The notes below the pieces were generated by a model that did not search any database, had not been told where the DNA came from, and saw only the letters and a program-made list of their open reading frames with translations. This document shows positions 41,644-54,037 of a stretch of DNA of 64,000 bases, piece by piece. Position 1 is the first letter of the stretch; the number at the start of each line of letters is the position of its first letter. Source of the DNA: Halobacteriovorax sp. GB3 (GTDB lineage Bacteria; Bdellovibrionota; Bacteriovoracia; Bacteriovoracales; Bacteriovoracaceae); NCBI RefSeq assembly GCF_028649655.1, contig NZ_JAQSLN010000001.1, positions 1 through 64,000 on the forward strand, written 5' to 3'. Both the position numbers and the translations under genes were made by a program.

Positions 41644-41694
41644 GTGAAATCAAGGGGTTATGTGTTCACAGAATTTGCTAATGAGTTTTTCTAA
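41644..41694 (+). other. Possible 16-codon leader ORF upstream of the nuclease gene
   Basis: A short frame starts with GTG behind AAAGGGGAG and ends at TAA 41694, 39 bases before the likely start of the nuclease. The ribosome site is good, although the spacing is short. It could be a leader peptide or chance. Confidence 0.2.
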
Positions 41695-41732
41695 GGGTAA
41701 ATTGGCCATTCCACGAAACCTTGGGGGAACTT

Positions 41733-43355
41733 ATCAGGTTTTTAATTGGATCGATACTTTTGGTGCTTTCTTATCAATCTTCTTGGGCCATTCCTACAGA
41801 CGATTATATGGAAAGGATTTTGTTTCAAGAAGAATGTGAGAATAATATCTCTTATCTTCCGTCTGTAGACGAATATAGCGTTGACTGTGGAATGGAATTT
41901 CACCATTACAATAGTGAAGCAGCTGAAGATTATTACTCTTCTTTTGATGATGATCCTGTGAAGCTTGGAACTTGGAATGTCTTTCATCCTGGGATTGGAA
42001 AGTCTCAATTTAAAGACTATTCTCTCGTCGCTGAAATCATGAATCGTTGGGATATCGTGACGGCCGTTGAGTTACTTCCTCTCATTGGTGCTGACTCCCG
42101 ACATAATGAATCAGTGATTTCTTATTTACGAGAAACTCCTCGAAAAATTAATGATCTTAAAAAAGAATTAAATGCTACGAATCCTTCCACTAAAGCTTAT
42201 GAAAAATTAAAAGCAGAGCTTAAAGAAGCTCAAGATGGATTAAAAAAGGCGAAAGGCCTCTATCGTAGTCCTGGTTACTTAAAAATACTGAAAGAATTAA
42301 GGAAAATAGATCCTTCATGGGCGCTTATCTTATCTCCAAGAGGTGAGGGAAGTGATGGTTCTTGGATTAACGAGCTTGTTGGTTTCTACTATAGAGGTAG
42401 AAAAGTTAAGCCAATTGAGAATGAGCATTGTGAGGCTTTTCAATCGACGTTAACAGCAAGTGATGCTTATGCATGTTTTCCTGATATCACGGGGAAATTT
42501 CTCTATCGTAATTATGAAGGCCTTTTCTCTAGAAGACCTTTTATGGGAAGTTTTAAAAGTGGTGAATTTGACTTCACTCTTATTGGTAGTCACATCATTC
42601 ATAACTCACCAGATGACAGTGATCTGATGAAGACACTTTTGAATAAAACATTTGGAGTTGATCATTATGATGATTTAGGTGAAGGTGTTGATAGCGGTAA
42701 TTACGCACGTTTTGCCGAAATTAAAATGACATTCGAGATTATTAAAAACTTGAAGCGTAAGTATAAAGAGCAAGATGTCATTTATACAGGAGATTTCAAC
42801 GTCGAAGCAGATGAGCCTCTATTGAAAAAGATGATGAGTGAGTACGAGGGAATGAAGGTACTTGTGAGATCGGAAACAAGTCTTTCAAATCAGCGCTTTG
42901 ACTCAAGTGGGGAAGGAAATGGTTACTCAAATAACTATGATCACTTCTTCGTGGACTCCAATAAACTTGGTGAATGTAAAATGGGAAGTCTTTTCACTTC
43001 GAGGCGAGTAGATTTTTACAAAGGATTTATTAACGATCTTATGCAGAAGTACTTGATTCGTGACATTGACGGTGTTTCTCATTTAAAGACGCTTTATCCA
43101 ATGTCTGACTCTGGAAAAAAGAAAATGAACCGAGAGGTTACTCGTTTTAAGAATTATCTAGATTCTCAATTAACGATTAAGAGAAATAAAATTGTTCCTG
43201 TCTATACTGATTCTGCTACGAGAGTTGATGCCTTTAGAAGGCGCGTTTTTGAAAGCCAATTAGATGATGATTTCTTTTATGGAGTTTATAAAGAGATTTT
43301 AAGTGATCACGCTCCAATTGAAATCACTTGCTCAACTGAAGAAGATGATGATTAA
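41733..43355 (+). CDS. Secreted endonuclease/exonuclease/phosphatase-family enzyme
   Basis: A protein of about 540 residues with a DNase I-like fold and the full catalytic set in order: LGTWNVF (Asn), VTAVELLP (metal-binding Glu), GSHIIH (catalytic His), YTGDFNV (Asp and Asn) and SDHAPIEI (Asp-His). A helical insertion follows the Glu. A signal peptide is present, so it is exported, possibly to digest prey or environmental DNA. No ATG, GTG or TTG stands at the right place. A perfect GGGGGAA lies 5 bases before ATC at 41733, which gives a normal signal peptide beginning (M)RFLIGSILL. The TTG at 41721 lies inside the same stretch without its own ribosome site. Confidence 0.8.
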   Translation: MRFLIGSILLVLSYQSSWAIPTDDYMERILFQEECENNISYLPSVDEYSVDCGMEFHHYNSEAAEDYYSSFDDDPVKLGTWNVFHPGIGKSQFKDYSLVAEIMNRWDIVTAVELLPLIGADSRHNESVISYLRETPRKINDLKKELNATNPSTKAYEKLKAELKEAQDGLKKAKGLYRSPGYLKILKELRKIDPSWALILSPRGEGSDGSWINELVGFYYRGRKVKPIENEHCEAFQSTLTASDAYACFPDITGKFLYRNYEGLFSRRPFMGSFKSGEFDFTLIGSHIIHNSPDDSDLMKTLLNKTFGVDHYDDLGEGVDSGNYARFAEIKMTFEIIKNLKRKYKEQDVIYTGDFNVEADEPLLKKMMSEYEGMKVLVRSETSLSNQRFDSSGEGNGYSNNYDHFFVDSNKLGECKMGSLFTSRRVDFYKGFINDLMQKYLIRDIDGVSHLKTLYPMSDSGKKKMNREVTRFKNYLDSQLTIKRNKIVPVYTDSATRVDAFRRRVFESQLDDDFFYGVYKEILSDHAPIEITCSTEEDDD

Positions 43356-44877: not shown

Positions 44878-47286
44878 TTACTTCGCTACGATGTTACAGA
44901 TTTTACCTGGAACGTAGATTTCTTTAACAATATTTTTTCCTTCAAGTTGACGAGCAACTTTCTCATCAGCTTTTGCCTTTGCAAGGAAATCATCTTTTGA
45001 AATATCTGCTGGAACTTCAATCGTCGCTCTTGTCTTACCATTAACCTGGACGGCCATTGTAATAAGATCATCTTTTGCAAGTTCTTCGTTATATGAAGGC
45101 CAAGCTTCGTGAGCTAGCGTTTGAGTGTGACCAAGAGTTGCCCAAATCTCTTCAGCAACGTGAGGCGCCATCGGAGCGAGAAGGAGTGAGAATGCTTCAG
45201 CCGTTTTCTTTGTTACTTTCTTTTTCTTCGTAGAAAGGTTGTTAAAAACCATGAGAGCAGAGATCGCTGTGTTAAATCTCATATTCTCAATATCATCAGT
45301 TACTTTCTTAATTGTCTTATGAAGAAGTTTTGTCACTTCTGTATCTTCTTCGCCTTCTTTTACGATATTTGATTGATCAGCGTAGAATTTATAAGACTTT
45401 TGAAGGAAGTTATAGACACCTTTAACTCCAGTTGTTTGCCATGGCTTAACTTTTTCAAGTGGCCCCATGAACATCTCATATAGTCTAAGAGAGTCAGCTC
45501 CAAAATTATGAACGATATCGTCTGGGTTAATCACGTTTCCACGTGACTTACTCATTTTTTCACCGTCTTCACCAAGAATCATTCCTTGGTTAACAAGTTT
45601 TTGGAATGGCTCTTTTGTTGAAACGTAACCGAGATCAAAAAGAACTTTGTGCCAGAAACGAGCATAGAGAAGGTGTAGAACAGCGTGCTCAACTCCACCT
45701 ACATAAAGATCTACTGGCATCCAATATTTTTCTAGCTCTTCATCCCAAGGTTTATCTTTATTCGTTGGGTCAATGAATCTTAGGTAGTACCAACAAGAAC
45801 CGGCCCATTGAGGCATTGTGTTTGTTTCACGTCTTGCTTTCTTTCCTGTTTTTGGATCTGTAATCCATAGCCATTCATCAATTGTCGCTAAAGGAGATTC
45901 TCCTGTACCAGATGGCTCATATTTCTCAACATCTGGAAGAGCAACTGGAAGTTCATCAGCTTCTAAGCAGCGAACAGTTCCATCTTCAAATTTAAGAATT
46001 GGGAATGGTTCTCCCCAATATCTTTGACGAGAAAAGAGCCAGTCACGAAGTTTGTAATTGATCTTCTTTGTTCCAAGTTTCTTTTCTTCAAGCCATGTGA
46101 TCGCTTTTGTGATCGCTTCTTCTTTGTTAAGTCCATCAAGGAAATCAGAGTTAACGTGAACTCCATCACCTGTATAAGCTGCTTCCTGTACGTCTCCACC
46201 ATTAAGGACTTCAACAATAGGAAGATCATATTTCTTAGCAAATTCCCAATCTCTTTCATCGTGACCTGGTACGGCCATGATTGCACCTGTTCCATATGAA
46301 ATAAGAACATAGTCAGCTACATAAATTGGAACTTCTTTTCCGTTAACTGGATTAAGGGCATAGGCACCTGTAAAGACTCCACTTTTATCTTTGTTAAGGT
46401 CTGTTCTTTCTAGGTCAGATTTAAGGGCGGCCTTTTCAAGGTAAGCTTCTACATCAGCTTTTTGTTCAGCTGTTGTAATTTTAGAAAGAAGTTCGTGCTC
46501 AGGCGCCACAACCATATAGGTTGCACCAAAGAGAGTGTCTGGTCTTGTCGTGAAAACTTCGAGTTCTCCTTGAGCATCTTTAACTTCAAATTTAACCGTT
46601 GCACCTTCTGATTTTCCGATCCAATTTCTTTGAAGTTCTTTAATACTCTCTGGCCAATCAACATCATCAAGATCTTCAAGAAGCCTGTCAGCGTATTCCG
46701 TAATTTTTAAAACCCATTGTTTCATTGGTTTTCTGATTACTGGGTGACCACCAACTTCAGACTTTCCATCAATGACTTCTTCGTTCGCTAGAACCGTTTT
46801 AAGTTCTGGACACCAATTAACAGAGATTTCGTCTTCATAGGCAAGACCTTTGTTGTAGAGCTGAGTGAAGATCCATTGAGTCCACTTATAATAGTCAACA
46901 TTTGACGTAGCAATCTCTCTATCCCAGTCATATGAGAAACCAAGAAATTTAAGCTGACGCTTGAATGTTTGAATATTTTTCGTCGTCGTAATATCTGGGT
47001 GTGTACCCGTTTTAATTGCATAGTTTTCAGCTGGAAGACCAAATGAGTCCCACCCCATAGGGTGAAGTACATTGAAACCTTTCATTCTTTTATAGCGGGC
47101 CATAATATCAGTGGCCGTGTAACCTTCTGGGTGACCTACGTGAAGACCAGCTCCTGAAGGATATGGGAACATGTCGAGCACATAGTACTTTGGTTTCGTT
47201 TTATCTGAGGCATCTGTTTTGAACGTCTTATTTTCGTCCCAATATTGCTGCCATTTCTTTTCAATGTCCTGAAAATTGTAATCCAT
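44878..47286 (-). CDS. leuS: Leucine-tRNA ligase
   Basis: Charges tRNA-Leu and edits mischarged products. HVGH is at residues 49-52 and KMSKSRGN near 576. The CP1 editing domain is present with TTRPDTLFG and [11 protein letters not shown], including the Thr-rich and Asp sites. At 802 residues it matches the shorter Bacillus-type length rather than the longer E. coli-type one. It is the first gene of the leuS-metG operon. Confidence 0.97.
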
Positions 47287-47448
47287 AAAAATCCTCTATT
47301 AATGCATTAAAACTGAATGAAAAGTGCACCTGGAATAGTAGCAAAGTCGGCTCCATTTAAAAAGGTGGAAAGGGGCATAAGATAAAGAAAATACGTATAT
47401 TTTCCGATGAGTTAGACGATTGAAAAGACAAAATCCTATGGAGAAAGA

Positions 47449-49293
47449 ATGACCAAGAGAAATCAATGGCTTAGGGGCTTTTTTACGACTGTTTTTTTAT
47501 TTATTTTCACGAGTATAACGCCCTTTGCTAGCGAGCAAGTTCAACTTCCCATAGTGAAATCGATTGGTGGTCTGATCATCACTAAAATAGAATTGGCCGG
47601 AAAAGATCATTTATTTCTCTTGGATACGGGCTCAAATGCGAACTTTATTAATCCCGCTCTAAAAAGTGAACTCTTAAAATCTGGTCATATCACTACAGAT
47701 ACGAAACTTGATACTGTCGTGAATACTTTCTCTAAAAAAATTGCTCTTAAGGGACATCGTCTGAATTTGAAGTTGAAGAATTTAACATACAATAAAATGC
47801 CAACATACTTTATGGATAACAACCGCTTTACAAAAGCAAAAGATGGGATTGACTGCTGTAGCGGAATTCTTGGAATCGATTTTTTAAAAAAGTATCCAAT
47901 AGAATTTGATCTTAAAAATAAAGTTGTAAAAATTAAGACAAAATTTAATGCTCCAAAACAATGGGAGCGACTATCCTTTGATGTCATTGGAAAAAATGTA
48001 TTAAAGATTTCCTGTATGATTGGAAAGAGAAATGTAGACTTTCGCTTTGACTCAGGTTCTGAAGCGCCTTTAATTTTTCATACAAACTTTTCAAACACAC
48101 ACAGAATAGCGCAAAAAGCCTATTTAGCAGGGCATGAACTAGGTCCTCTCTTTGTTAACCTTGGTGAAATTCGTTGCGGAAATATTAAATTTACAGCAGA
48201 TAGTTATGCTTATCTTGGTTCCTCCGGAGCCTTGAGCCATTCCTTTATTGATGGAAATATGGGACCGTCACTTCTTGGAGAACATTACGTTTTTGATTTT
48301 AATAAAAAAGCGTTCTTTATCGCTAAACCAGTTCTTGAAAATAAAGTACCCTATAAATCGTATGAGATCGATCTTAAAGCAATGCAGAGAAACTCTATTG
48401 GTGAGTTAAAGCAAGCGGAAGCCTTAATTCTCAACTCTTGTATACAGGTTTCAGGAGAAAAAGACTGCATTAATAAGTGGTGTAGAATTTATGGTAAGAA
48501 GTGTTCGTATAACGAAAAGGAAAAGGGGATAGGGCAGATTCTTAAGGCCATGTATCCAAAGACTTCGCTAGATTGTTCTCACTTTAAAATGGGAGCTAAT
48601 TTGATGAAGGCTCCTCTTAAAGAAGATTATTGTTGGTGGAAAGAAACAATGAGACTCAAAGAGAAAGAGGGTGAACAACTTGAGTATTCTGTTGTAACGC
48701 AAAAGAAAGACTACTTTATGAAAGGTGAGTTTCAACTCTATCTTCCTCGGAATCAAGTAGAGCTAACAAAGAAGCTTTATTGTTATGCCATTTACTCGAA
48801 TCTTATTACTACTGAGTCCGTTGAGCCTCTCTTATTTGCCTTATCGATTAAAGGAATGAGTCTTTCAAACAAGAGATTAAAACAATATTACTCGTGGCTA
48901 GCTCAAGGAGAAGGTCAAAAGTGTCAAGCTTGGATGAATGAGCTTTTTCCTTACGAAAAAGACCAGGAGAAATTAGAGTCTCTCTTTTTTGGGCGTGATC
49001 ATTTAGTCATCGTGAATCCATTAACTATTCTAGGGGATGGTGTTACAGGATTTGAGAAGGGGCTAACGACAACTCTATCTCATGAAGCGCTACACGTCTT
49101 ATATGACAAGAATAAGAAAATCAAAAAGTATGTGAAGGATAAGTGGTCAAAGCTTTCTGATAAGAAAAAAGAAGAATTCAAAAAAGCTCATCCTTCTTAT
49201 CAATTCGATAAAGAAGATGTTCTATTAAAAGAGTACTTTTCTTACACTTTTCAAGATAAGGTAGATTTAATAAAAAAAGAGTTTATGGATTAA
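47449..49293 (+). CDS. Secreted protein with two retropepsin-like motifs and a C-terminal HEALH zinc motif
   Basis: A 614-residue protein with a signal peptide (about residues 1-28). Two aspartyl-protease-like units follow. The first has LLDTGSNAN (Asp59) and GILGIDFLKKYPIEFD; the second has FRFDSGSEAP (Asp201) and GPSLLGEHYVFDF. Each is the paired DT/SG and hydrophobic-Gly motif of retropepsins, so the two lobes could form one bilobal active site. A Cys-rich middle region follows. Near the end LSHEALHVLYD (545-549) is an HExxH zinc site with a candidate third ligand in LLKEYF (Glu595). GGAGAAAG precedes the ATG. The combination is unusual; whether both sites work is unknown. Confidence 0.65.
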   Translation: MTKRNQWLRGFFTTVFLFIFTSITPFASEQVQLPIVKSIGGLIITKIELAGKDHLFLLDTGSNANFINPALKSELLKSGHITTDTKLDTVVNTFSKKIALKGHRLNLKLKNLTYNKMPTYFMDNNRFTKAKDGIDCCSGILGIDFLKKYPIEFDLKNKVVKIKTKFNAPKQWERLSFDVIGKNVLKISCMIGKRNVDFRFDSGSEAPLIFHTNFSNTHRIAQKAYLAGHELGPLFVNLGEIRCGNIKFTADSYAYLGSSGALSHSFIDGNMGPSLLGEHYVFDFNKKAFFIAKPVLENKVPYKSYEIDLKAMQRNSIGELKQAEALILNSCIQVSGEKDCINKWCRIYGKKCSYNEKEKGIGQILKAMYPKTSLDCSHFKMGANLMKAPLKEDYCWWKETMRLKEKEGEQLEYSVVTQKKDYFMKGEFQLYLPRNQVELTKKLYCYAIYSNLITTESVEPLLFALSIKGMSLSNKRLKQYYSWLAQGEGQKCQAWMNELFPYEKDQEKLESLFFGRDHLVIVNPLTILGDGVTGFEKGLTTTLSHEALHVLYDKNKKIKKYVKDKWSKLSDKKKEEFKKAHPSYQFDKEDVLLKEYFSYTFQDKVDLIKKEFMD

Positions 49294-49750
49294 TTGCTAG
49301 TATTTGATTCTTTAGTTTTTGATCAACTGGATTGGGACCAATCCAGGGTAAAAGTATAATCTTTGCCAATAAATTGTCTTTTTTTGAAGCAATCATTTTG
49401 TTATTTAAATCTAATGTGACGAGGTCGCCTTTTATTTCAATAGAGAAACGATCTCCCTTTTTTATTGTCGTTGTATGTCGATTGATCCAACTTATTTGAT
49501 CTTGGTATTTCGCTAGATCTTTAATATTGTTCTCTAAACCTACTTTCCATCCTTCTAGAGAATATTCTTTTTTTACATCGATTTTATAATCAAGTGATAG
49601 CTTCGTATGATTATTGGAGTTTTTATAGTAGGACACTTCATAGATATCGATCTTGAATATAGAGTATTCCAAGAGTCCTTTTCCAACCAATTTCAATTCG
49701 GTTGCAAAGATGAAGTTTGTCATCAACAGAAACAAAAAGAAAAACTTCAT
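49283..49750 (-). CDS. Secreted chalcone isomerase-like domain protein
   Basis: A 155-residue protein with a signal peptide (about residues 1-16). The mature sequence follows the CHI-like pattern: KLVGKGLLEYSIFKIDIYEVSYY at the start, a charged middle, KKGDRFSIE, and a C-terminal LPWIGPNPVDQKLK. The fold binds fatty acids in plant relatives; bacterial ones are uncharacterised. ATG at 49750 has GAGG 8 bases upstream and overlaps the desaturase stop as ATGA. Coupling to the desaturase gene and the nearby lipid genes suggests a lipid role. The C-terminal end overlaps the convergent gene by 11 bases. Confidence 0.65.
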   Translation of the reverse strand: MKFFFLFLLMTNFIFATELKLVGKGLLEYSIFKIDIYEVSYYKNSNNHTKLSLDYKIDVKKEYSLEGWKVGLENNIKDLAKYQDQISWINRHTTTIKKGDRFSIEIKGDLVTLDLNNKMIASKKDNLLAKIILLPWIGPNPVDQKLKNQILAINP

Positions 49751-50502
49751 AAGCACGACCTCTTTATTTTTATGACGCGAGTAAATGACATAAATTTGAT
49801 AATTAAATAAGTCGGATCGAATTCGTACCATTTATGAGCAAAGTTAATCTTTTGGCAGCTGTAGTGATGATTATTTTGATAGAGCTCTCCCATAAGAGGA
49901 ATATCCCACAAAAGTGTATTTCTACTTTGATCTTTTATATCGTAATTGCGATGACCATAATTATGCCCACACCAATTCACAATTGCACCTTGTATTGGTC
50001 CAATGAACAGATGAATAGGGATGAGAAGATAGTATAGAGGTTCTACCTGAAACCAAAGATAGAGGAAGATATAAATAGCGGTCCATAGAATAATATTCCA
50101 ATGGCCAGCTGCAAATTTATCTAGCCATGGCCATGTCGGATAGTGATGAATAATGGAATCATCTTTAAACTCTTTTTTAAATTCTTCAAAATCACTTTGA
50201 GCTAATAATTTTTTATACTCGTAATAAGTTGCAATCATCATAGAAACAACATTACCGTGATTGGTTGGGGAGTGTGGGTCTTTATGTGTATCACTATGAG
50301 CGTGATGTCTTTGGTGCATGACTGAATAAGATCTAGGGTTTAAAAAGCTTGCTCCCTGAGCGATGTATGTGAGGAAATAGAAAAATTTTTCCCAGAAAGG
50401 ATTCATTTGAAACATCTTATGGGCACAATATCTATGAAGAAAGAACGACTGTAGAAAGAGCGATAGAAACCAATGAAATATTAAGAAAAGAACTGGCAAC
50501 AT
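49747..50502 (-). CDS. Acyl-CoA/fatty acid desaturase
   Basis: A 251-residue integral membrane di-iron enzyme with the three histidine boxes HRYCAH (about residues 23-28), HQRHH and NNHHYS, typical of delta-9 type desaturases that introduce a double bond into acyl chains. It is shorter than the usual length at the N-terminus. It is transcribed divergently from the DUF1295 gene across a 151-bp region that holds 11-bp-spaced TTGTCTAT repeats. Its products would be substrates for the two Cfa-like enzymes in the neighbouring operon. Confidence 0.9.
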   Translation of the reverse strand: MLPVLFLIFHWFLSLFLQSFFLHRYCAHKMFQMNPFWEKFFYFLTYIAQGASFLNPRSYSVMHQRHHAHSDTHKDPHSPTNHGNVVSMMIATYYEYKKLLAQSDFEEFKKEFKDDSIIHHYPTWPWLDKFAAGHWNIILWTAIYIFLYLWFQVEPLYYLLIPIHLFIGPIQGAIVNWCGHNYGHRNYDIKDQSRNTLLWDIPLMGELYQNNHHYSCQKINFAHKWYEFDPTYLIIKFMSFTRVIKIKRSCL

Positions 50503-50535
50503 AGAAAAACCCCTTTTCCATAATCTAGCACAAAA

Positions 50536-50581
50536 TTAGACAGGCTAACTTAAGAAAACCTTTTGTCTATGCATTGTCTAT
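50536..50581. promoter_or_regulatory. Candidate operator: TTGTCTAT direct repeats in a divergent promoter region
   Basis: TTGTCTAT occurs at 50563-50570 and 50574-50581, exactly 11 bp apart, with an inverted TTAGACAG at 50536-50543. All three share the TAGACA core seen upstream of the MerR-B12 gene at 59829-59856. An 11-bp direct-repeat spacing is the mode of binding known for the Thermus CarH tetramer. The site is placed to control both the desaturase and the DUF1295 operon. Confidence 0.5.
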
Positions 50582-50653
50582 TTATGAGATTCGCTCTAAA
50601 GCGCTTCTTGGTTGTATGATTATAAAAATATTGCTGATAACAAAGGGGCGGCA

Positions 50654-51442
50654 TTGAGTATATACATAATCGATTTCATTACTATGGCATTGATGTTTCA
50701 TCTCTTTTACGCCGTGGCTGTATTTAAAAAAGACTTTGGGGTGATCGATATCGCATGGGGAATAGGACATCTTGTCCCTCTATGTGTTGGACTTGTTTTC
50801 AATCCTGTGTTGAGCTTACGTCAAGTTTTTGTCTCATTAGTTTTACTTCTGTGGGCCTTTCGCTTGTCTGGTTATATTTTTCTTCGATCTCAAAAAAAAC
50901 CTGAAGACTTTCGATATAACGAGATGAGAAAGTCCTATGGCGATCGGGCAAATTTTCTCGCCTATATTAGAATATTTTGGTTTCAAACGATCATTCTTTA
51001 TGTTCTCTCTCTCCCCGTTTTATGGATCGTATCAACTGAACAAAGTGAACTTGTATTAAGTGATTATTTTGCTTTAGGAGTTTGTTTCATCGGTCTATTA
51101 ATAGAGACCATCGCAGATTCTCAAAAAAATCAATTCAAAAAAAATAAGAACAATAATGGCAAATTTATTCAATCAGGCCTTTGGAAATATAGTCGTCATC
51201 CAAATTACTTTGGGGAATCTCTCTATTGGTGGGGGTTCTTCTTTTTTTCATTTAATTTGAGCTTAGGAGCACTTCCTCTTTGGAGCATTGCTTGGTTTGC
51301 ACCATTAGTCCTTACATTATTTCTTCTCTTTTTTAGTGGAATTCCTATGCTAGAGAAAAAACGTGAAAACGATGAAACATTCATTGAGTATAAGAAGAAA
51401 ACATCGGCCTTTATACCCCTTCCTCCAAGGGAGAATATATGA
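50654..51442 (+). CDS. DUF1295 membrane protein (steroid 5-alpha-reductase-like)
   Basis: About 262 residues with six or seven hydrophobic segments. The C-terminal region has GLWKYSRHPNYFGESLYWWGFF, the conserved His/Asn signature of the isoprenylcysteine methyltransferase/steroid reductase-like family. It starts at TTG 50654, chosen because AAGGGG lies 5 bases upstream; another TTG is 42 bases earlier. It heads a seven-gene operon and its stop overlaps the next start as ATGA. Members are often found near Cfa-like enzymes, but the reaction is not established. Confidence 0.85.
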   Translation: MSIYIIDFITMALMFHLFYAVAVFKKDFGVIDIAWGIGHLVPLCVGLVFNPVLSLRQVFVSLVLLLWAFRLSGYIFLRSQKKPEDFRYNEMRKSYGDRANFLAYIRIFWFQTIILYVLSLPVLWIVSTEQSELVLSDYFALGVCFIGLLIETIADSQKNQFKKNKNNNGKFIQSGLWKYSRHPNYFGESLYWWGFFFFSFNLSLGALPLWSIAWFAPLVLTLFLLFFSGIPMLEKKRENDETFIEYKKKTSAFIPLPPRENI

Positions 51443-51753
51443 AAAAAATAATTATCATATTTATCGGTCTCTTTACTTTGATGTTAGGGACAACCGTTTG
51501 GGCATCGTTGCAAGAAAATCTCTTTGATCATTTGTCTCATTATGTAGCAATGCCTTGGTTTAAAGCAACGTTAATTGATTTTTACATAAACCAAATCATT
51601 CTTTGGTTTGGAGTCGTTTTTATTGAAAGAAAAATTATGACAAATCTCATATGGCTCATTCTCTTCATTTGCTTTGGAAGTATGGGGACAACAATCTATC
51701 TAATATATTTTTTAACTTCTAAAAAATATAAACTATTAAAGGAATACGTATGA
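51439..51753 (+). CDS. DUF1475 small membrane protein
   Basis: A 104-residue protein with three hydrophobic segments. TTVWASLQENL near the start and PWFKATLIDFYINQ in the middle are the conserved pattern of DUF1475. Function is unknown; it recurs with DUF1295 and Cfa-like genes. Both ends overlap neighbours by four bases (ATGA), so translation is coupled. Confidence 0.8.
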   Translation: MKKIIIIFIGLFTLMLGTTVWASLQENLFDHLSHYVAMPWFKATLIDFYINQIILWFGVVFIERKIMTNLIWLILFICFGSMGTTIYLIYFLTSKKYKLLKEYV

Positions 51754-52772
51754 TTGATTCAATAGTAGCAAAAGGTTTTTTACCAGACTTCGCTTTAAGG
51801 AGAGGTATTCGCCACCTAATTGATAAACGACTTGATGAAATTCTTTTTGGTAAAGCAGATCAATTGGATCAAAGAAGAAGGGATCTCGTCAATGAACTTA
51901 GTGAATCGCCAATTGCACTTGAGACTGATCTTGCAAACGATCAACACTATCAAGTACCTTCAGCATTCTTTGAAAAGGTCTTAGGAGAAAACTTAAAATA
52001 TAGCTGTGCCTATTGGCCAGAGGGAACGTCTTCTCTTGTAGATGCCGAAAATCGAATGCTCGAACTTACTTGCGAAAGAGCTGAAATTGTTGATGGTATG
52101 TCTATTTTAGAACTAGGATGTGGATGGGGAGCGATTACTCTTTTTATGGCCAAGAAGTATCCAAACTCAAAAATTGTGGCCATTTCTAATAGTAAAACTC
52201 AAAAGATCCATATTGAGTCTCGCTGTGAAAAAGAGGGGGTTACAAATGTTGAAGTTCGAACTTGTAATGTTGCCGAGCTCGAGTTGAGTGAGACATTTGA
52301 TCGTGTCGTATCAGTCGAAATGTTCGAACATATGAGAAATTATAAAAAATTACTGAGTAATATCTCCCGCTGGCTTAATGAAAATGGAAAGCTCTTTGTC
52401 CATGTTTTTGTTCATTCAAAGATGCCCTATAAGTTTGAAGTAAAAGATGAAAGTGACTGGATGTCTAGGTACTTCTTCTCTGGAGGAATTATGCCAAGCG
52501 AACACCTTTTTTACTATTTTCAGGATGACTTAAAGATCTCTAGGCATTGGAGTTTTTCAGGTGAACACTATGCAAAAACGGCGCGTGCTTGGCTTAATAA
52601 AATGGATGAAAATAAAGAAGAGATTTATCAAATCTTTAATGAGCACTACGGAAAGAAAGAAGCTACTAAATGGTTTAATTATTGGAGAGTCTTTTTTATG
52701 TCATGTGAGGAACTCTGGGCCTTTAACCGCGGGCGTGAATGGTTAATCGGTCACTATCTTTTTGAGAAGTAG
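51750..52772 (+). CDS. Cyclopropane synthase-like SAM methyltransferase
   Basis: A 340-residue methyltransferase of the CFA synthase family. The SAM site is LELGCGWGAIT near residue 116. It has DQHYQVPSAFFEKVLG and LKYSCAYW before the Rossmann domain, and VSVEMFEHM after it. It differs from the second Cfa at 54789 in lacking the N-terminal domain and in many core residues. It probably methylates an unsaturated lipid or another acceptor. In Rhodobacter, an enzyme of this type in a similar operon acts on unsaturated fatty acids in furan fatty acid synthesis. The ATG overlaps the DUF1475 stop. Confidence 0.85.
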   Translation: MIDSIVAKGFLPDFALRRGIRHLIDKRLDEILFGKADQLDQRRRDLVNELSESPIALETDLANDQHYQVPSAFFEKVLGENLKYSCAYWPEGTSSLVDAENRMLELTCERAEIVDGMSILELGCGWGAITLFMAKKYPNSKIVAISNSKTQKIHIESRCEKEGVTNVEVRTCNVAELELSETFDRVVSVEMFEHMRNYKKLLSNISRWLNENGKLFVHVFVHSKMPYKFEVKDESDWMSRYFFSGGIMPSEHLFYYFQDDLKISRHWSFSGEHYAKTARAWLNKMDENKEEIYQIFNEHYGKKEATKWFNYWRVFFMSCEELWAFNRGREWLIGHYLFEK

Positions 52773-52780
52773 GGAAGTCT

Positions 52781-54037
52781 ATGAAAAAGAGATTGGCAAT
52801 CGTTGGAACGGGTATTGCTGGCATGGCCAGCGCCTATTTTCTAAAAGACGAATTCGATATTACTGTTTTTGAAAAAGATGCACGAATTGGTGGTCATACC
52901 AATACAGTTAGCTTCGATTATAGAGGTGATGAAATTTCTTTTGATACTGGTTTTATGGTATTCAATGAAGTGACTTACCCTAATCTTATAAAACTCTTTA
53001 AAAAATTAGAGGTAGATTATTATGATACTTCAATGAGCTTTTCTGTCTTTAATGAACCTATGGGTATTGAGTATAATGGTTCTAGCTTGAATGGATTATT
53101 TTCACAACGAAAAAATCTCGTGAGACCTTCACACTACAAAATGATTCTCAATATTAATAAATTTAATCAAAAAGCACCTTCAATCTTAGCAGATAGTAAG
53201 TACGATGGAATGACTGTTGCAGAGTTTGTAGAGGACTGGAAGTTAGGGGAAGAGTTTCTTCATCTTTTTTTGATACCTATGTCTTCTGCTGTTTGGTCAA
53301 CTCCTGCAGAGAAAATGCTAAAATTTCCTATCCAATCGTTGGTTCGATTCTTCTTTAATCATGGCTTCATGGGACTTAATACTCAACATCAATGGAAGAC
53401 AATTACAGGTGGTTCCAAGAGTTATCGAGATAAGTTAATTAATTCTTTTATTGATCAGATTAAAGTCGAAGATGAAGTTCTTGAAGTGCTATTAAAAGAT
53501 GATCAAGTGGAAATCACTTCTCGCTCAGGTCATTCTACATTTGATTATGTGATTATGGCATCCCATGCCGATCAAAGTTTAAAGATGAGAAAGAATCCAA
53601 CAGTCGATGAACTTCGTATTTTATCTGCCTTTAAATATCAAAAAAATATGGCAACAATTCATACTGATCATTCCATCATGCCAAAGTTAAAAGAAAATTG
53701 GTCTTCATGGAATTATGTAACTAAGGAGAAGGGATCTGCTTTTACTGTTTACTATATGAATTCTCTTCAAAAAATAAACCATCCTGATTCGTTCTTTATT
53801 AATATAAATGGTGAGCAGTATGTCGATCCATCGATGATCATTAGTCAGATTGCCTATGAACATCCTGTTTTTGATATCGAAGCCGTTCGTTCGCAAGAAG
53901 ATGTTTTCAAAATTCTCAATCAAGAAAAGAACAGAATAAAATATTGTGGAGCCTGGACTCGCTATGGTTTCCATGAAGATGGGATTTTATCTGCTGTTCG
54001 GTTATGCTCATCAATCCTTGGGCGAGAGGTTCTATGA
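52781..54037 (+). CDS. FAD-dependent amine-oxidase-like oxidoreductase
   Basis: A 418-residue flavoprotein with the dinucleotide-binding motif IVGTGIAGMASAYFL at the N-terminus followed by the FAD-family DARIGGHTNTV. The second FAD segment near the C-terminus is CGAWTRYGFHEDGILSA. It belongs to the COG2907-type oxidoreductases found next to DUF1365 and Cfa. The likely role is oxidation or desaturation of a lipid. It begins 8 bases after the methyltransferase and overlaps the DUF1365 start as ATGA. Confidence 0.85.
   Translation: MKKRLAIVGTGIAGMASAYFLKDEFDITVFEKDARIGGHTNTVSFDYRGDEISFDTGFMVFNEVTYPNLIKLFKKLEVDYYDTSMSFSVFNEPMGIEYNGSSLNGLFSQRKNLVRPSHYKMILNINKFNQKAPSILADSKYDGMTVAEFVEDWKLGEEFLHLFLIPMSSAVWSTPAEKMLKFPIQSLVRFFFNHGFMGLNTQHQWKTITGGSKSYRDKLINSFIDQIKVEDEVLEVLLKDDQVEITSRSGHSTFDYVIMASHADQSLKMRKNPTVDELRILSAFKYQKNMATIHTDHSIMPKLKENWSSWNYVTKEKGSAFTVYYMNSLQKINHPDSFFININGEQYVDPSMIISQIAYEHPVFDIEAVRSQEDVFKILNQEKNRIKYCGAWTRYGFHEDGILSAVRLCSSILGREVL

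Follow-up and report, generated by a model that had tools for sequence, protein, structure and literature searches.

An exported protein of Halobacteriovorax predicted to join an aspartic and a zinc protease in one chain

The DNA analyzed here (hereafter the window) is a stretch of 64,000 nucleotides from Halobacteriovorax sp. GB3, and the gene in question encodes a protein of 614 amino acids (aa) with an apparent signal sequence. The protein combines two retropepsin-like aspartic motifs with an HExxH zinc motif in one chain, and is composed of an aspartic half with two lobes (N), a helical linker domain (M) and a zincin-like domain (A), an architecture referred to below as N-M-A. The features of the locus are given in window coordinates, with the basis of each call in brackets; pLDDT denotes the predicted local distance difference test score.

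47440..47443, + strand: GGAG, likely ribosome-binding site, 5 bases ahead of the ATG (read from the sequence)
47449..49293, + strand: candidate two-protease gene, N-M-A architecture, 614 aa (list of open reading frames, phylum comparison)
47449..47532, + strand: predicted signal peptide, residues 1-28, hydrophobic core FFTTVFLFIFTSITPFA (read from the sequence, low pLDDT)
47536..47946, + strand: lobe 1, residues 30-166 (Pfam PF13650; alignment with 9iy9)
47623..47634, + strand: D59-T-G-S, predicted first catalytic Asp motif (D59, G61 and S62 invariant)
47866..47874, + strand: I140-L-G, hydrophobic-hydrophobic-Gly (psi-loop) partner of lobe 1 (invariant)
47950..48336, + strand: lobe 2, residues 168-296 (lobe profile alignment; bilobal structural alignment over 27-296)
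48049..48060, + strand: D201-S-G-S, predicted second catalytic Asp motif (D201 and G203 invariant)
48271..48279, + strand: L275-L-G, hydrophobic-hydrophobic-Gly (psi-loop) partner of lobe 2 (L276 and G277 invariant)
48346..48720, + strand: helical linker domain M, residues 300-424 (model, alignment; also in B-M-A relatives)
48721..49290, + strand: zincin-like domain A, residues 425-614 (separate module in other proteins; confident model)
48781..48783, + strand: Cys445, proposed disulfide partner of Cys492 (invariant in domain A)
48922..48924, + strand: Cys492, proposed disulfide partner of Cys445 (invariant in domain A)
49081..49095, + strand: H545-E-A-L-H549, zinc motif within a helix of 20 residues (conservation; domain model)
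49231..49233, + strand: E595, putative third ligand of the zinc, 46 residues past H549 (conservation; domain model)

The initial annotation of this DNA had described DTGS at 59 and DSGS at 201, each followed by its retropepsin partner, in the same chain as HEALH at 545-549 and a downstream Glu595. The positions of all these residues proved exact, with ILG at 140-142 and LLG at 275-277 as the partners, the shared chain was confirmed, and both sets of residues are conserved in relatives. Among 200,000 shuffles of the 614-aa protein, at least two D[ST]G motifs arose in 2.0%, HExxH in 1.6% and both together in 0.03%; given this frequency and the conservation of the residues among relatives, the combination is not attributable to chance. 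Export had been proposed as well, and it agrees with a predicted Sec signal, an N-terminal hydrophobic stretch over residues 1-28 that was read by eye and is modeled with low pLDDT. None of its 12 cysteines varies within the family, which is consistent with an oxidising compartment outside the cytoplasm.

Conservation of the aspartic half was assessed in 8-sequence alignments with relatives 31-43% identical to the window protein. The positions D59, G61, S62, I140-L141-G142, D201, G203, L276 and G277 are invariant, and residues 60 and 202 are Thr or Ser in every sequence. Pfam recognizes Asp_protease_2 (PF13650; 33.4 bits vs a cut-off of 24.3) in lobe 1 only; the profiles of lobes 1 and 2 align with each other, placing D59 on D201. 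A lobe sequence profile also matched PDB entry 9iy9 (E 0.00025), with the Asp motifs superposed in each of the two lobes, and 9iy9 was likewise the best structural match of the full-length AlphaFold2 model (mean pLDDT 77.9), aligned over residues 27-292 with Z 14.3 and a root-mean-square deviation of 4.2 over 244 residues. Pepsins were matched in a single alignment over residues 28-296 with Z 10-11. The initial annotation had left to structure prediction whether the two lobes come together, and in the model they are not apart, both being aligned at once with bilobal aspartic proteases; since one structural alignment spans both lobes of such proteases, Asp59 and Asp201 probably form one active site.

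The aspartic half is of the bacterial clan AA, Asp_protease_2 type, with a predicted pepsin-like mode of working. Its fold matches pepsin family A1, but no A1 profile was returned by a Pfam-A hmmscan to E 10, which listed PF13650, PF13975 and DUF2884; NCBIfam gave no match for the protein. The closest counterpart, 9iy9, is a Bacteroides fragilis 'putative endopeptidase' or 'exported protein' (PDB, 2025) and the sole clear PDB sequence match of the lobes. It is likewise exported with two retropepsin-type lobes per chain, but no domain A or M was seen in it, the match covering chain residues 156-437 of the 420-residue chain; a literature search returned no paper on 9iy9. Bacterial A1 homologues were predicted to be intracellular (PMC2761423), whereas the 614-aa protein carries a signal sequence. 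RloA and RimB of Pseudomonas are clan AA retropepsin-like proteases with a DTG motif, RloA being an exported protein that contains a disulfide; both are single-lobe homodimers (PMC12239564) and lack a metal domain, in contrast to the two lobes plus domain A described here. The window's own genome also encodes free-standing two-lobe relatives of 282 aa (C1:678045) and 272 aa (C1:582731, where the second lobe was recognized by eye through an IWDTG motif), and the presence of two lobes in a single bacterial chain is therefore not new in itself. Separately, weak twin-lobe matches occur mid-chain or C-terminally in long proteins mostly of family f8 (L032-L034, L106-L126); L033 and L034 appear by eye to have a PDZ-like end, and in L033, the sole one scanned, Pfam called no PDZ domain.

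Domain A was modeled separately with high confidence (pLDDT 89.4, predicted template modeling score 0.84). In model numbering, a strand lies at 94-98, the HExxH motif on a helix at 111-130 and the conserved Glu on a later helix at 165-177, so that the HEALH helix, which the initial annotation had singled out for a structural check, belongs to a domain predicted with confidence (pLDDT 89) that also offers a candidate third ligand. Among the 33 domain-A copies with letters at these positions, one of them the B domain of L065 that was matched by the A profile, E546, H549 and E595 are present in 33/33 and H545 in 31/33, and the copies are just 23-44% identical to the window copy. The top five structural matches are all of zincin type and weak (Z 4.8-5.6), followed by unrelated folds at Z of 3.3 or less: a YbeY-type protein (1oz9, Z 5.6), PprI (8sln, Z 5.4) and domain I of anthrax lethal factor (three entries, Z 4.8-5.0), the last of which we take to be a zincin-like fold without the motif.

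The HExxH...E zincins (M78 PprI/IrrE, SprT-like, lethal-factor fold) thus share with domain A the HExxH helix and the downstream Glu, together with a weak fold similarity in the case of PprI and the lethal-factor zincin-like domain, but no Pfam or PDB sequence match links them. A PDB sequence search with domain A gave no match, and no Pfam family exceeded its cut-off; in a comparison of 12 domain-A sequences with Pfam, M78 (PF06114), SprT-like (PF10263), M91 (PF14891) and Tox-MPTase2 (PF15638) all stayed below cut-off, with best E values of 0.04-0.14 and no more than two of the sequences matching any one family. Domain A shows zincin hallmarks in its sequence but was accepted by no family tested. 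Among the viral structures of BFVD, an environmental Megaviridae protein of 171 aa, A0A5J6VI82, was the best match to domain A (E 0.01, template modeling scores 0.49/0.54).

To assess the distribution of the architecture, 369 genomes of the phylum were searched. The aspartic part gave nine strong matches (E <1e-90), every one of them from the family to which the window belongs, with four genera represented, and in 9/9 of these genomes linker M and domain A follow within the same gene. The initial annotation had called the union of aspartic and zinc signatures an unusual architecture, and its restriction to nine genomes of one family bears this out. Two of the nine genes are incomplete. The G022 copy runs off its contig end, its presumed C-terminal part lying, to judge by position and similarity, at the end of another contig; in G095 the reading frame is broken. 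The broken copy recorded for L042 (Bacteriovorax sp. DB6_IX) and G095 lies beside intact leuS and metG and is a pseudogene or an assembly error. An all-species genome scan with the single protein returned no matches, and a scan with the alignment returned eight loci, 7/8 of them labeled Bacteriovorax, Halobacteriovorax or Bacteriovoracaceae: Bacteriovorax sp. BSW11_IV, Bacteriovorax MedPE-SWde, Halobacteriovorax ARS37, Bacteriovorax DB6_IX, Bacteriovorax UBA1852 and two Bacteriovoracaceae metagenome-assembled genomes (MAGs). The eighth (L038) is a full-length copy on a 5.4-kb contig of a MAG labeled Patescibacteria, for which a mislabel, misbinning and transfer are all candidates. Viral contigs, plasmids and phages held no match to the protein.

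Domain A extends beyond this architecture. Within the phylum it occurs alone, in proteins that measure 215-288 aa and begin with a signal-like stretch, and together with a second HExxH domain (B); the order is A-B in two genomes, whereas three genomes from another family have B-M-A. These chains with two HExxH...E sets measure 547-572 aa (L018, L019, L022) or 485-491 aa (L008, L020), and in domain B both HE..H and a Glu beyond it are invariant, while its scores stay below every Pfam cut-off. The match of the A profile to the B domain of L065 is a hint that domains A and B are remotely related. A profile from which the three B-M-A proteins had been left out still recognized linker M in them (E 5.5e-8, 2.7e-9 and 6.6e-4); its occurrence in both N-M-A and B-M-A proteins therefore indicates that M and A form a unit, to which the aspartic lobes or another zincin-like domain are joined at the N-terminal side. 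The linker has six invariant cysteines (331, 340, 345, 352, 376 and 395). In the domain-A tree, an A-only group is set against a group that holds every multi-domain form together with two proteins of domain A alone, both sides being well supported; N-M-A may have a single origin, as the tree fits one or several. The window's own genome has in addition a distant 262-aa domain-A paralogue (L011, G000:C1:271373-271615) with HEFHH and NEFQAY.

We hypothesize, with moderate confidence and on the strength of motifs, conservation and models, that the protein is exported and works as a protease of two chemistries, one chain carrying both an aspartic and a zinc site with a disulfide-rich linker between them. 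Residues 30-296 would form an aspartic endopeptidase of two lobes, with one water molecule shared between Asp59 and Asp201 in the manner of pepsin. The linker domain (residues 300-424) is probably held by three disulfides. Residues 425-614 would act as a metallopeptidase, with His545, His549 and Glu595 holding zinc and Glu546 activating water. Two cleavage preferences would thus be tethered on one substrate. The role may be to break down protein from prey or from the environment, whether in the periplasm, in the prey or in the medium.

Several observations weigh against two working sites. The structural Z of about 5 for domain A is under the level of a safe match, a Foldseek search of the PDB with this domain found nothing significant, and the lobe 2 loop 203-209 is poorly predicted (pLDDT <50). 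Moreover, H545 is replaced by Arg in G022 (L003/L009, RERLH) and by Tyr in the B-M-A relative G290 (L022, YERLH), with the downstream Glu kept, and the zinc site is therefore not kept in every lineage.

These replacements, with the rest of the protein persisting, speak for the best-surviving alternative, which we regard as rather unlikely: that there is one general protease site, with the aspartic half degrading and domain A being regulatory, substrate-binding or cutting one partner, or the reverse. The exchange of N-terminal partners of domain A, aspartic lobes in some proteins and the HExxH domain B in others, is in keeping with such a division of labor. It is opposed by the near-invariance of the four zinc-site positions over several families of the phylum, and by the copies of domain A that stand alone behind a signal-like N-terminus, where a same-chain partner to regulate is lacking.

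Less probable again is that the protein is a precursor, whose linker would be cut after export by one of its own domains or by another protease to release two enzymes, the fusion coupling their production only. The stretch 406-423 between M and A has a pLDDT <50, and domain A and twin-lobe modules occur also as separate proteins, both of which would suit such processing; however, this stretch is short and does not lie at the N-M joint, and the joining of M to A in N-M-A and B-M-A proteins alike suggests that M and A remain together. An artefact of chance motifs, or of neighboring genes fused by sequencing error, as the broken G095 frame might invite one to suspect, has a negligible probability, being already refuted by independent full-length copies: genomes of four genera, as well as named records from separate projects, show all parts in one chain, and shuffling very rarely produced both motif sets.

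In the window, the gene is flanked on one side by leuS (44878-47286, - strand; named from sequence) and on the other by a chalcone-isomerase-like open reading frame, also on the - strand, which overlaps its 3' end by 11 bases. The adjacent leuS-metG is retained in two genera and missing in others. A lipid-type cluster at 49283-54037 comprises Chalcone_3, a fatty acid desaturase, DUF1295, DUF1475, a cyclopropane synthase-like protein and an amine oxidase, and in the sister species its genes have the same order and the same lengths. A tie of the protein to these lipid-type neighbors is unsupported, as that neighborhood was found in the sister species only. A further open reading frame of 555 aa at 41685-43349 (+ strand) matches no Pfam family, and copies 35-36% identical to it lie by the leuS-metG locus in L036 and L040.

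To our knowledge, single proteins with two protease chemistries are rare outside viral polyproteins, and no paper describing an aspartic-plus-zinc protease fusion was found in the literature searched. Both chemistries are known; what is new is a zincin-like family absent from Pfam and a combination unreported within the searches made, which for domain A were by profile within the phylum. Whether the chain described here stands for a whole family seems to us an evenly balanced proposition: that Bacteriovorax-type bacteria and their relatives have exported proteases in which both the aspartic and the zinc site work, derived from an unnamed zincin-like family joined to aspartic lobes or to a second zincin-like domain. 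Predatory relatives of this lineage are under study for the secreted enzymes that they may supply (PMC7174725). Domain A represents a compact, conserved zincin-like family without a Pfam entry that is directly testable, and, if both sites work, the protein would be a naturally occurring tandem protease whose two halves differ in their inhibitor profiles.
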